56,119 bases of DNA from Candidatus Bathyarchaeota archaeon (GTDB lineage: Archaea; Thermoproteota; Bathyarchaeia; Bathyarchaeales; Bathycorpusculaceae). Every line of letters begins with the position of its first letter. Within the stretch, counting starts at the first letter, position 1. Positions 42,983 through 47,602 of the stretch are shown here, piece after piece. The position numbers and the translations under genes are program-made. The notes below the pieces were generated by a model that worked only from the letters and a program-made list of their open reading frames with translations, did no database searches and had not been told where the DNA came from. The DNA lies in contig PLNS01000004.1 of the NCBI GenBank assembly GCA_003141855.1, positions 1-56,119 on the forward strand, given 5' to 3'.

Positions 42983-43336
42983 ATGAGAATCTTACCAATC
43001 CTTGGCGGCATTGCAGTTGCAGTCTTGTTCTTTTTTGCAGTTATCTTTGCGCTTGCCGCTTCCGTACAAGCCACAACAGCAAGGCTGGCTACAAGCGGCA
43101 TCCTCTTCATAGTTGGGCTTGCAGTAATCGTCGGCATCTACTACACCATACGCAAACCCAAAACCATCATCCAGCGTTTGGAGGTTTCGGGGCAGATGGC
43201 GGCAGCCCAAATTAAATGTCCCAACTGCGGCGGATCCATAAGCGCTGACCAAATAAAGATTGAGTCAGGCGTGCCATACGTTAAATGTCCCTACTGCGGC
43301 ACCACGTTTGAGGTTACTGAGGAACCAAAATGGTAA
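42983..43336 (+). CDS. Two-helix membrane protein with C-terminal zinc ribbon
   Basis: A 117-residue protein. Two membrane helices (about 5-26 and 35-56) and a cytosolic zinc ribbon (IKCPNCGGSISADQI...VKCPYCGTTFEV). Its stop (TAA at 43334-43336) overlaps the ATG of the next gene by seven bases, so translation is coupled. First gene of the three-gene cysteine-tail operon; possibly an assembly or membrane partner. Confidence 0.75.
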   Translation: MRILPILGGIAVAVLFFFAVIFALAASVQATTARLATSGILFIVGLAVIVGIYYTIRKPKTIIQRLEVSGQMAAAQIKCPNCGGSISADQIKIESGVPYVKCPYCGTTFEVTEEPKW

Positions 43337-44964
43337 AACCTACACTGCTTGTTATCATTGCATTGTTAGCCTTGACGCTGGCAGTTTCAGTTGCAAGCAG
43401 TGTCAACGCCCAAAACTTAGTGTACAGTGTGGACCATGAGTGGGCGCAAATCTTCATCAACCAAGATGGCACCATCGACTTAACCTACAACATAACCGTG
43501 TCTGTGTCCTCGGGAGTTATGCATGGGTTCTATGTTGGGCAGCCAAAAGCCGACTTCACTGTAGGCCAAGGAGTAGACCAATACGGAAACACACTCCAAG
43601 TTCTCGATAAAAGTAGCGGCAGCGACTACCGAGTTGACGTGACACTAAACCAGCCCTTAACCGCTGGGCAATCCGTTTGGTTCCAAGTCACAACCAACGT
43701 TGCAGGAATGATAAGCAACGACACCCAAAACCCAGGCAACTATGGCATGCAGTTTATTCCCCAATGGGACACCGCTGTTCCGATTAGTGATGTGCGGGTG
43801 CAGATTGTGTTGCCTCCAGATGTGACCGTACCCGACGTGAAAACTACCCAGAACTTCTACAATGGCACTTCAACTGTGCAGGGGCAGTTGGCGGTTTACT
43901 GGGAAAAACCAGTCATACAAGCCAATGAACAGTTTTTGGTGGGCGTTTCTTTTCCAGCCAGATTCATGCCCAATTACGTACCCAGCCCATCGGGAGGCGG
44001 CATAGACTTTGGAATTTTCGGTGCCATTCTAGGAGTTATTGGAGTCCTGGTTGCAATTGTCATTATAGTTTTGGTGTTTAGGGCGCTAAGTAAAAGCTCC
44101 TATGCATCGCCCAAGGTGAGCATGGAAACGTTGGGGGTTAAACGTGGCTTAACAGCTGTGGAAGCATCATACCTTATGGATCTAAAGCCACCCCAAATAG
44201 TAACTGAAATCCTCTACAGCCTACTGCAGAAGAGGGCAGTTTGGGCTCAAGAAACTAAACCATCGCTTAAACTGAAAGTGTTGCCGCCGTTTGACAATAA
44301 AACTGGTCCAAAAGACAATCCCCTGCGATATTACGAAATCGATTTCCTCAATTCCTTGAAGCCCGATGGAACTCTCGACGAAGAGAAACTTGCGCACACC
44401 ATCATGTTCCTTCGCGACACGGTGGAGCAGAAGCTGCAGGGTTACAGCCGAAAAGACACCGTTGACTACTACAGAAAAATCGCATCTCAAGCTTGGGCTC
44501 AAGTGGAGCAAGCGGGTACGGTTGAGTTGGCATCGAATGCTTATGATGAGCAACTGCTCTGGCTGATGCTTGACCCCAACCAGCGGACACGTACAGAAAC
44601 TGTGTTCAGAGATAGGGTTATCCAGCCGAATCCGCTGTGGTTCTGGTGGTGGTACGGCTACACCATTTATCATCCGCATCCCACGTACATCCCAAATGTT
44701 AACGTGCCAGCACAATCAGCAAAGCCGCCAGCTATTCCAGGAGCCGATTTCGCAAACACAATCGCCACATCTGTCGAGAAAACTTCAAACAACATCGTAG
44801 TCAACTTAGAAAAATTCGCCAACGCCATCGTTCCGCCGCCGCCAAAAGCTTCCCATGACCCAGCTCATCCTAAAGCGGACTGCGTTTGTGCGTGTGCTGC
44901 ATGTGCTTGTGCCTGCGCTTGCGTCTCGTGTGCTTGTGCATGTGCAGGTGGAGGAGGACACTAA
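43330..44964 (+). CDS. DUF2207-like membrane protein with Cys-alternating tail
   Basis: A 544-residue protein. Signal peptide (about 1-26), a beta-rich extracellular domain (about 30-210), a membrane helix (about 232-256: FGAILGVIGVLVAIVIIVLVF), a cytosolic domain (about 270-510) of DUF2207 type, and a low-complexity tail from residue 518: ten cysteines at 518, 520, 522, 525, 527, 529, 531, 534, 536 and 538, separated mostly by Ala, then GGGGH. Blocks of 3, 4 and 3 cysteines are spaced by AA and VS. The tail is read from clean TGC/TGT codons with no frameshift. The next gene is a radical SAM enzyme with a peptide-binding domain. Confidence 0.85.
   Translation: MVKPTLLVIIALLALTLAVSVASSVNAQNLVYSVDHEWAQIFINQDGTIDLTYNITVSVSSGVMHGFYVGQPKADFTVGQGVDQYGNTLQVLDKSSGSDYRVDVTLNQPLTAGQSVWFQVTTNVAGMISNDTQNPGNYGMQFIPQWDTAVPISDVRVQIVLPPDVTVPDVKTTQNFYNGTSTVQGQLAVYWEKPVIQANEQFLVGVSFPARFMPNYVPSPSGGGIDFGIFGAILGVIGVLVAIVIIVLVFRALSKSSYASPKVSMETLGVKRGLTAVEASYLMDLKPPQIVTEILYSLLQKRAVWAQETKPSLKLKVLPPFDNKTGPKDNPLRYYEIDFLNSLKPDGTLDEEKLAHTIMFLRDTVEQKLQGYSRKDTVDYYRKIASQAWAQVEQAGTVELASNAYDEQLLWLMLDPNQRTRTETVFRDRVIQPNPLWFWWWYGYTIYHPHPTYIPNVNVPAQSAKPPAIPGADFANTIATSVEKTSNNIVVNLEKFANAIVPPPPKASHDPAHPKADCVCACAACACACACVSCACACAGGGGH
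44881..44964 (+). other. Cys-alternating tail coding segment
   Basis: Encodes 10 Cys in 21 residues followed by GGGGH and the stop. The codons are mixed TGC/TGT and GCT/GCC/GCA, so the pattern is protein-level, not a simple DNA repeat. Candidate target of post-translational thioether formation. Confidence 0.7.
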
Positions 44965-44966
44965 AA

Positions 44967-46301
44967 ATGAGTTTTCTAAAGAAAAAGACAATCCCGTTTG
45001 GAAGATACACTTACCGTGGAACTGACAAGTTCGCAGGCATGTCCTTGCAGCTACGTGTTGAGGCAAGTGGACAAGGCGTCATGGTGATTAACGGCGATAG
45101 AATTCTGCATCTTAATCATACGGCTACTGCGTTGGCTTACTTTTTCGTGCAGGGCTTGCCCGAAAAAGATGTGGTGAAAAAAATTCGGGGCATGTACCGT
45201 GTTAATGCTGAAACCGCCAAGGCTGATTACGAAAAACTTGTTTACACAGTAAGCACGCTTGCGCAGACCGCGAAAATTGACCCCGTGAGCTTTCTTGAAA
45301 TCGAAAAGATGGAGCCTTTCAGCTACCAGTATTCAGCGCCGCTGCGCATGGATTTGGCTTTGACGTTTAGGTGCCAAAACGACTGCGTGCACTGTTATGC
45401 TGGCGGACCACACGAAACACCCGAACTGACAACGACGCAGTGGAAAAGCGTAATTGACAAGCTCAGCGAAATCGGCGTCTTCATCTTAACCTTCACGGGT
45501 GGCGAACCCACGCTGCGGGAAGATTTGCCTGAACTGTTACTGTACGCTCAAAACAAGGGCATGGTAACTGGGTTAATCAGTAATGGGCGACGGCTCAAGG
45601 ATAAAGCGTATGTGGATGTGCTTGAAAAATCAGGCTTAGACTTTGTGCAGGTAACGTTGGAATCTCACAAGCCACAAGTTCATGACAAAATGACGAGCGA
45701 GAAGGGCAGTTGGAAAGAAACCGTCGCAGGAATCCAAAATGCAGTGCAATCGCAAATTTACGTTTCAACCAACACAACGCTAAGCAAACACAACGCAGCA
45801 GACTTCCTCACAACCGTCGACTACATTAAAGCGCTTGGTGTGGATGCGTTTGGCTGCAACAGCCTCATCTACTCAGGCAAAGCCCCAGATGCAAGTGAAG
45901 AATTCGCCCTATCCGTCGAAGATTTAAAGCTGCTTTTGCCGAAAATTCGAGACAAAGCCCACATGATTGGCTTAAAGTTCCTCTGGTACACGCCAACCCA
46001 GTACTGCCACTTTGACCCCGTTCAACTGGGCTTAGGCGTTAAAACCTGCACAGCGGCCATGATAAACGCGTGCGTGGGACCAAACGGCGACGTTTACCCA
46101 TGCCAAAGCTACTTTGAAAGCCTCGGAAACATCCTAACTGAGCCTTGGGAGAAGATTTGGCACCACCCCTTGGCAGAAAAACTCCGAAACCGAGAATATG
46201 CCGAGGAAAAATGCAAGGATTGCTCGCAGCTGCAGGTCTGTGGTGGCGGATGCCCCTTGGAACTTCAAAACAAAGAGCACCAATGTACCCAGACAGGATA
46301 A
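44967..46301 (+). CDS. Radical SAM / SPASM peptide maturase with PqqD-like domain
   Basis: A 444-residue enzyme from ATG 44967, two bases after the upstream stop. Residues about 25-105 look like a PqqD-like RiPP recognition element (GVMVINGDRILHLNHTATALAYFF...LVYTVSTLAQT). The radical SAM core has CxxxCxxC in FRCQNDCVHC (Cys136, 140, 143) and FTGGEPTLRED; the C-terminal SPASM domain has CTAAMINACVGPNGDVYPC and CKDCSQLQVCGGGC for auxiliary Fe-S clusters. Such enzymes install thioether bonds from Cys in peptides. The neighbouring protein with ten C-terminal cysteines is the obvious candidate substrate; this is inference. Confidence 0.9.
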   Translation: MSFLKKKTIPFGRYTYRGTDKFAGMSLQLRVEASGQGVMVINGDRILHLNHTATALAYFFVQGLPEKDVVKKIRGMYRVNAETAKADYEKLVYTVSTLAQTAKIDPVSFLEIEKMEPFSYQYSAPLRMDLALTFRCQNDCVHCYAGGPHETPELTTTQWKSVIDKLSEIGVFILTFTGGEPTLREDLPELLLYAQNKGMVTGLISNGRRLKDKAYVDVLEKSGLDFVQVTLESHKPQVHDKMTSEKGSWKETVAGIQNAVQSQIYVSTNTTLSKHNAADFLTTVDYIKALGVDAFGCNSLIYSGKAPDASEEFALSVEDLKLLLPKIRDKAHMIGLKFLWYTPTQYCHFDPVQLGLGVKTCTAAMINACVGPNGDVYPCQSYFESLGNILTEPWEKIWHHPLAEKLRNREYAEEKCKDCSQLQVCGGGCPLELQNKEHQCTQTG

Positions 46302-46366
46302 TTTATCTTTAGCAAGCTACCATTCTCTTCTTAGGCAAATAGCGCTGGTTTGTGAGTTTAGAGAGA

Positions 46367-47602
46367 ATGGCTCAAACGGAAAGATGCAGGCTTATTGTTT
46401 TCGATGTAGAAGGAGTACTGATTCCTAAAAACCGCTTCATTTTTGAAGTAGGCAAAACTTTAGGTTTCCTCGGGCTAGTTAAACTTCTTTTCTTCGGTCT
46501 TCTCTATGAAGTAGGCATTTTGAAGTTAGAATCAGCCTTAAGACACATTTTCAAGGATATGAAAGGCATTAAACTTGAAACCCTACTGTTTATTTTCGGC
46601 AAGATTCCAGCTACACCTTATCTGCAAAACTTTTTTTGCCAGCTTAAAGCACGCAAATGCAAGATAGCCCTAATTAGTTCAGGGATACCCACAATCATCG
46701 TTAAGAAATTGGCGACGGCGTTAGGTGCAGATTACGCTTATGGAGTTGAAGTTGAAACCAAGGATGAGAAGTTAACGGGTGAAATCTGGGGCGACGCAAT
46801 CACAAAGAACGGAAAGCAAAAGATTTTGTGTGACATCTTGAATCGAGAAAATTTACGATTGAGCGATTGTATTGTTGTTGCTGACGACCGAAATAACCGT
46901 TGCATTTTCATGCCAGGGATGTTAAAAATCGGTTTTAACCCTGATTTTGTTATAAGAGTTAAGGCTGACCGAGTTGTTAGTAGTAAACTTTCAGGAATCC
47001 TGCCAATTATTGATGGGAAAAAGCATAAGCGTTCTTTTCCGTCAACGAATGATCTTGTAAGAGAAGACATTCATGCTTCAGGATTTTTTATGCCAGTCAT
47101 TGCGGGCCTGATCGGTATTCCCGTTGTGGCCTCGATAATCATCTTCATCTCCATTGTTTATACTGCGTCTGAGCTTTCGCGTTTGGAGGGACGTGAATTG
47201 CCCTTGGTTTCCGCGATTACGCGTCATGCGGCTTCGCAGTCGGAGTTGTATGGTTTTGCTGCGGCACCGCTTTACTTTGCTTTTGGGATAGTAGCGACTT
47301 TGCTTCTTTTCCCCACCCGCGCAGGCGGTGCAGCCATCGCAATTTTCTGCTTCGGTGACAGTGCAGCTTCGCTTTTCGGAGGATTAATTTCTACTTCGTT
47401 ACCGTTTAACAAGGGGAAGACTTGGGAAGGTTCATTGGCGGGGTTCATTTTTGCTTTTTTGGCTGGGTCGTTCTTTGTTTCACCATGGTTAGCTTTGGCT
47501 GGGGCAGCGATTGCCATGACCATTGAGGTTTTGCCTTTGCCAGTGAACGATAATGTTTTGATTCCGATGATTACGGGTGCAGCGTTAACTTTGCTGGTCT
47601 AA
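46367..47602 (+). CDS. HAD phosphatase fused to SEC59/DGK1-like kinase domain
   Basis: About 411 residues from ATG 46367 (GTG at 46352 is an alternative). The N-terminal half is a HAD phosphatase of SerB type: VFDVEGVLIP (DxE instead of DxD nucleophile pair), LISSGIP, and VVADDRNN. The C-terminal half (about 240-410) has six or so membrane helices with GDSAASLFGG and GKTWEGSLAGF, hallmarks of SEC59/DGK1/VTE5 dolichol/lipid kinases that use CTP. The fusion suggests a polyprenol-phosphate or lipid phosphate turnover enzyme. It follows the radical SAM operon by 65 bases. Confidence 0.8.
   Translation: MAQTERCRLIVFDVEGVLIPKNRFIFEVGKTLGFLGLVKLLFFGLLYEVGILKLESALRHIFKDMKGIKLETLLFIFGKIPATPYLQNFFCQLKARKCKIALISSGIPTIIVKKLATALGADYAYGVEVETKDEKLTGEIWGDAITKNGKQKILCDILNRENLRLSDCIVVADDRNNRCIFMPGMLKIGFNPDFVIRVKADRVVSSKLSGILPIIDGKKHKRSFPSTNDLVREDIHASGFFMPVIAGLIGIPVVASIIIFISIVYTASELSRLEGRELPLVSAITRHAASQSELYGFAAAPLYFAFGIVATLLLFPTRAGGAAIAIFCFGDSAASLFGGLISTSLPFNKGKTWEGSLAGFIFAFLAGSFFVSPWLALAGAAIAMTIEVLPLPVNDNVLIPMITGAALTLLV

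Follow-up and report, generated by a model that had tools for sequence, protein, structure and literature searches.

How is a membrane protein ending in ten regularly spaced cysteines related to the radical S-adenosylmethionine (SAM) enzyme that is encoded directly behind it? The question is raised by a three-gene locus located at positions 42983-46301 of a stretch of 56,119 nucleotides (hereafter the window, i.e., positions 1 to 56,119 of contig PLNS01000004.1, assembly GCA_003141855.1) from a Candidatus Bathyarchaeota archaeon. The window genome measures 2.39 Mb, and its closest relatives in public data are metagenome-assembled genomes (MAGs) labelled Bathyarchaeota. All three genes lie on the forward strand: a small zinc-ribbon gene (ORF1), the gene of a DUF2207-like membrane protein of 544 residues (ORF2, 43330-44964), and that of a radical SAM/SPASM enzyme of 444 residues (ORF3, 44967-46301). 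The first-pass annotation had read from the letters an overlapping and touching gene order, which the coordinates match to the base, ORF1 and ORF2 overlapping by 7 bases (spacing -7) and the ATG of ORF3 standing at 44967, 2 bases past the stop of ORF2 (spacing +2). It had also rightly described the tail CVCACAACACACACVSCACACAGGGGH (residues 518-544, 44881-44961) as ten cysteines within the last 27 residues of ORF2, in blocks 3-4-3, followed by GGGGH. Comparison of related loci makes it quite probable that the enzyme modifies this tail in place on the membrane protein, while the chances that the modification specifically consists of thioether bonds appear about evenly balanced. The evidence is comparative throughout, and presence or absence in MAGs can mislead for single genomes.

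The first element of an answer is the conservation of the tail. The membrane protein occurs in 73 of the 251 genomes of the same class (Bathyarchaeia), and the tail, which is its most conserved stretch, is near-invariant in 56 Bathyarchaeial copies, with a whole-protein identity to the window protein going down to about 36%. A survey with a single genome for each species, extended by pattern searches, located the same tail in other Thermoproteota, in Theionarchaea, in MAGs labelled Thermococci or Methanomicrobia, in Chloroflexi and in Bacillota-type bacteria; the first-pass annotation had seen here an unusual archaeal case, a description that does not hold for a system distributed over several archaeal lineages, Chloroflexota and Bacillota. 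Among 105 distinct DNA copies of the tail, the entropy amounts to 0.09, 0.15 and 1.43 bits for the first, second and third codon position, respectively, which argues for selection acting on the peptide and against a DNA repeat, and the identical peptide CACACACVSCACAC is encoded by 78 different DNA sequences. The codon-position test, together with the single occurrence of the CxCxCxC DNA pattern in the whole window genome, thus ruled out that the tail arose by chance or from a DNA repeat. The cysteines alternate with small residues in blocks separated by two-residue breaks (VS, AG, DS, AA and others) and, depending on the lineage, the block sizes are 3-4-3, 3-3-3, 2-4-3, 4-3, 5-3, 4-4 or 2-3-4, with the two-residue break remaining constant. 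Such breaks would hold all of the cysteines on one face, the blocks then forming antiparallel strands connected by two-residue turns. Two peculiar tails deserve mention in their own right. In one locus (L128, genome G036), the tail is intact except that an in-frame TGA takes the position of its third Cys codon, which could reflect an error of sequencing, a nonsense mutation or the encoding of selenocysteine. In two Bacillota genomes (G880 and G919, loci L288 and L289), the Cys-Ala stretch lies within a longer frame and precedes a region recognized by eye as TPM-like; since the open frame runs on past the tail, these proteins may contain it internally.

The second element is the association of the tail with the enzyme. 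Among the 73 class genomes containing the membrane protein, 70 also contain the enzyme; in two of the other three (G081, G084) the loci lie at contig ends, and the third (G224) provides a fragment limited to the first 130 residues of the protein. The two class genomes with the enzyme alone (G099, G018) contain nothing more than fragments. The enzyme gene is located downstream, on the same strand, in 58 of 60 Bathyarchaeial loci, the remaining two being the contig-end cases. In Chloroflexota, the enzyme is encoded close by in all 15 newly found tail genomes versus none of 40 tail-less genomes, and in Bacillota each of the five tail genomes encodes a member of the enzyme family no more than about 2 kb away. 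Three loci (L233, L235, L236) show no enzyme within 6 kb of the tail gene and have it elsewhere in the genome, and no enzyme was found in L216, a small MAG with the tail. Accordingly, the check for tail homologues occurring without the enzyme, suggested by the first-pass annotation, left as exceptions only the two contig-end loci, the G224 fragment and L216, and its companion check, for the enzyme being linked to a different small peptide, yielded no such pairing. Another small peptide as the partner of the enzyme was therefore rejected; the one extra enzyme copy that was inspected and has no tail gene (G041, L160) is devoid of the iron-sulfur (FeS) motifs.

What chemistry the enzyme would perform is indicated by its domains and its relatives. 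The radical SAM and SPASM domains recognized in the first-pass annotation both score over their Pfam cut-offs (83.8 and 43.8 bits, respectively). The radical SAM core (residues 132-286, 45360-45824) displays the CxxxCxxC motif as CQNDCVHC, and its cysteines 136, 140 and 143 are invariant in 28 homologues, like cysteines 361, 379, 416, 419, 425 and 429 of the SPASM domain (residues 361-429, 46047-46253). The N-terminal domain (about residues 12-100, 45000-45266) is modelled, with a pLDDT of 88, as four strands followed by three helices, a fold resembling the recognition element (RRE) of ribosomally synthesized and post-translationally modified peptide (RiPP) pathways, and the PqqD match is over the cut-off in a Chloroflexota orthologue (24.1 bits), with a score of 38 bits for a further linked enzyme of the radical SAM type. 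The nearest solved structures are, by sequence, SkfB and PqqE, then BlsE and SuiB, and, by fold, SkfB, SuiB and CteB, with anSME and the epimerase EpeE also among the matches; the identity to SkfB is approximately 22% over the fold alignment. Among the matches listed, no curated NCBIfam family exceeds its cut-off (144 bits versus 500 and 120 versus 265 at best), and likewise no NCBIfam maturase family does so among those listed for the Chloroflexota and Bacillota enzymes. A match of 69.8 bits to anti-phage viperin (pVip) in PADLOC was discarded, as it covers the radical SAM core only and SPASM families score higher. Chloroflexota often contain, near the maturase, a second and weaker-scoring radical SAM-like protein (L279, 6289-7443; also L273, L274, L275, L278 and L280). 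The one such protein inspected over its whole length retains the PqqD-like domain and lacks both the CxxxCxxC motif and the SPASM cysteines, so that it may be a non-catalytic partner.

Because the closest enzymes are thioether-type maturases, a thioether is the most likely product, and alanine is known as a thioether acceptor in ruminococcin C1 (PMC8172795). Alternatively, the enzyme might modify the tail without any thioether, either by epimerizing alternate residues to D-Ala or D-Cys, or by creating carbon-carbon or other bonds. The strict alternation of residues would suit a modification of this repeated kind, PoyD-type and EpeE/YydG enzymes are epimerases, and EpeE itself occurs among the fold matches; moreover, radical SAM/SPASM chemistry on repeats can surprise, as in the case of TvgB, which leads to cyclopropylglycine (PMC9062424). 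This alternative is nevertheless considered rather unlikely, since sactisynthases and other cross-linking maturases score higher by both sequence and fold, and the invariance of the cysteines points to sulfur chemistry.

A natural control is provided by the canonical DUF2207 proteins (L298-L323) that other families of this class encode: of 26 such proteins, not one has a cysteine in its last 60 residues. Twenty-three of them carry terminal tails of the type GGGFGGGGGFGGGGAGAR, with a Gly/Arg-rich one among them, and the remaining three are seemingly cut off or misread. None of the 26 genomes belongs to the 73 genomes with the Cys tail, a non-overlap that is not independent from genome to genome because both forms follow lineage. 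Both forms share the terminal GGGAR/GGGVR, a hint that the Cys-Ala tail takes the place of the Gly/Phe one. The two forms also differ ahead of the tail, where a conserved pre-tail helix (about residues 466-502, 44725-44835; helices 471-489 and 493-500 in the structure model) is present in all 56 Bathyarchaeial Cys-tail proteins, in 15 of 17 from other Thermoproteota and in 19 of 20 from Chloroflexota, versus none of the 26 Gly/Phe-tail DUF2207 proteins. This helix is likely to be the docking site for the RRE-like domain of the enzyme. The hydropathy of ORF2 predicts a signal peptide, an acidic extracellular domain and a single transmembrane segment at residues 232-250 (44023-44079), the latter also indicated by charge and by a predicted helix 230-253; the part of the protein located beyond this segment, including the tail, is thus probably cytosolic, i.e., on the side of the enzyme. 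Besides the Cys-Ala system, the Chloroflexota genome G592 encodes (L277, G592:C252, 2646-5794, minus strand) a second DUF2207 protein (25.5 bits) with a tail of CHSAC/CHDAC-type repeats, directly upstream of another PqqD-radical SAM-SPASM gene. Both genes are possibly a parallel tail/maturase pair using Cys and His, and the fact that a different Cys tail comes with an RRE-type radical SAM enzyme of its own favours the view of such tails as substrates.

These observations bear on a different explanation, according to which the tail remains unmodified and binds metal or iron-sulfur clusters through its thiolates, the enzyme having another target in the same pathway. CxC arrays do resemble the thiolate sites of metallothioneins, and the partner of the system is a zinc-ribbon membrane protein. 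ORF1 (117 residues, 42983-43336) consists of two transmembrane segments predicted from hydropathy, followed by CPNC...CPYC, and matches the MJ0042-type zinc finger with 27 bits against an NCBIfam cut-off of 20.9; its four cysteines are invariant across 24 homologues, and the zinc-ribbon gene is also found upstream of several Chloroflexota copies of the tail protein. A mere metal site is improbable, however, as it would leave unexplained the near-exceptionless pairing with an RRE-bearing maturase, the restriction of the pre-tail helix to Cys-tail proteins, and the case of G592, in which a further RRE-radical SAM gene adjoins the second Cys tail.

Assuming that the tail is modified, does it stay on the protein? 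An RRE, a SPASM enzyme and a Cys-rich C-terminal core make up the usual grammar of RiPPs (PMC8172795), and the membrane protein could accordingly be a precursor that gives off a RiPP-type peptide when its modified tail is cleaved. ORF2, however, is conserved over the whole of its roughly 500 residues across phyla, and its tail shows nothing of the diversification of natural products. The only genes widely conserved in 82 archaeal loci are those of the substrate, the enzyme and the zinc-ribbon protein, which makes peptide release very unlikely; no protease, exporter or immunity gene is widely conserved across these loci, which speaks only indirectly against cleavage. Retention of the modified tail on the membrane protein is thus the preferred reading. 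The first-pass annotation had proposed a modification of the tail on the full-length membrane protein, and this proposal gains from the conservation of the tail and its near-obligate pairing with the enzyme, whereas the thioether and the absence of cleavage are inferred. Downstream of the enzyme, the window contains a gene (46352-47602) coding for a HAD domain (Pfam) followed by a membrane region that looks by eye like a dolichol kinase/CTP transferase; it adjoins the operon in near relatives only (13 of the 82 loci).

Several points weigh against an in-place modification of a cytosolic tail. The match of ORF2 to DUF2207 (PF09972), with 18.5 bits (E 0.0025), falls below the Pfam cut-off of 24.4, and its relatives score 20-23 bits; the family label given in the first-pass annotation is therefore sub-threshold for the window protein itself, and owes its backing to the Chloroflexota paralogue with the other Cys tail, at 25.5 bits, besides the family alignment and the archaeal and bacterial homologues. 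Similarly, the PqqD-like domain announced for the enzyme remains below the cut-off in the window protein (15.3 bits, E 0.026), and is upheld by the orthologue and by the RRE-like fold of the model. The tail is hydrophobic enough to be scored as a possible transmembrane segment, which renders the topology uncertain, and it is unfolded in the structure model. The pre-tail helix is not recognizable in Theionarchaea-type and Bacillota proteins, where recognition may consequently differ. Finally, the Fisher tests of the pairing (8e-56 and 8e-14) overstate the evidence because the genomes are related to each other. More telling than these tests is the fact that tail and enzyme stay paired through changes in gene order, strand and linkage.

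Taken together, the data are consistent with a system made of a substrate and a maturase, joined in many lineages by a zinc-ribbon membrane partner. From its seat in the membrane, the DUF2207-like protein would extend its C-terminal half into the cytosol, where the PqqD-like domain of the enzyme would bind near the C-terminus, probably at the pre-tail helix. The Cys-Ala tail would then be modified where it stands, the enzyme most likely cross-linking the sulfur of cysteines to a carbon of another residue, to give a covalently braced beta-hairpin or meander retained on the membrane protein. Metal binding, redox activity or self-association, the latter like that of the Gly/Phe tails seemingly replaced, are candidate roles for the modified tail. 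More tentatively, such proteins may represent a widespread class of cross-linked Cys sheets with a permanent membrane anchor, in which a one-sided thiol/thioether beta-meander replaces the Gly/Phe tail and confers a new function in metal binding, redox or assembly. If in-place modification is the right reading, the radical SAM maturation of Cys arrays extends beyond small secreted peptides and serves Archaea as well as Bacteria to equip a conserved membrane protein with an added feature. A likely substrate would then be available for a group of enzymes lying outside all curated families among the matches listed, and the pair would offer a concrete substrate and enzyme, with an almost fixed target of 20 residues, for probing the role of low-complexity tails in DUF2207 and TIGR04222 proteins. 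The Cys-tail protein and its radical enzyme look like an undescribed protein-maturation system: no published description associating DUF2207 with a radical SAM enzyme was found, in a search that left most of the subscription literature outside, so that a prior account is possible, and a broader search of the literature returned a single close analogue (PMC12452194), discussed below.

With the maturases of sactipeptides and related thioether peptides, e.g., SkfB, CteB and RumMC of ruminococcin C, the enzyme shares an RRE-like domain, a radical SAM core, a SPASM domain and a Cys-rich target, but the known substrates of these maturases are small peptides that are secreted and separated from a leader (PMC8172795), in contrast to the tail of a 544-residue membrane protein. 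Since the partner is this conserved protein instead of a small precursor with a cleaved leader, the system is not classed among sactipeptides or ranthipeptides. Full-length proteins are the targets of anSME, SPASM radical SAM enzymes which modify a Cys (or Ser); these act on one residue of a sulfatase, whereas the present system lacks a sulfatase and comprises a repeated Cys array along with an RRE-like domain. Canonical DUF2207 proteins, one of which has been deleted in Streptococcus mutans in a study of biofilm formation and stress tolerance (PMC10457818), have in common with ORF2 the DUF2207 domain and a low-complexity C-terminal tail ending in GGGAR/GGGVR, but this tail consists of GGGFGGGG repeats, without cysteine or pre-tail helix. 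The closest precedent is the proposal that TIGR04222 membrane proteins with Cys-bearing C-terminal tails are substrates of MNIO (DUF692) enzymes (PMC12452194), a paper in which DUF2207 is not mentioned; neither ORF2 (E up to 1) nor one Chloroflexota homologue matches the NCBIfam model TIGR04222. Both systems associate a full-length membrane protein, a low-complexity Cys tail and a predicted modification by a linked iron enzyme, which is an MNIO in one case and a radical SAM enzyme in the other. The tails of TIGR04222 proteins, however, are Ser/Gly-rich with scattered cysteines and predicted to be periplasmic, whereas the present tail is made of Cys and Ala and predicted to be cytosolic; TIGR04222 proteins occur mostly in Actinomycetota and are loosely linked to MNIO, 490 of 1372 genomes being devoid of it (PMC12452194), in contrast to the tight pairing of the Cys-Ala tail with its radical SAM enzyme.

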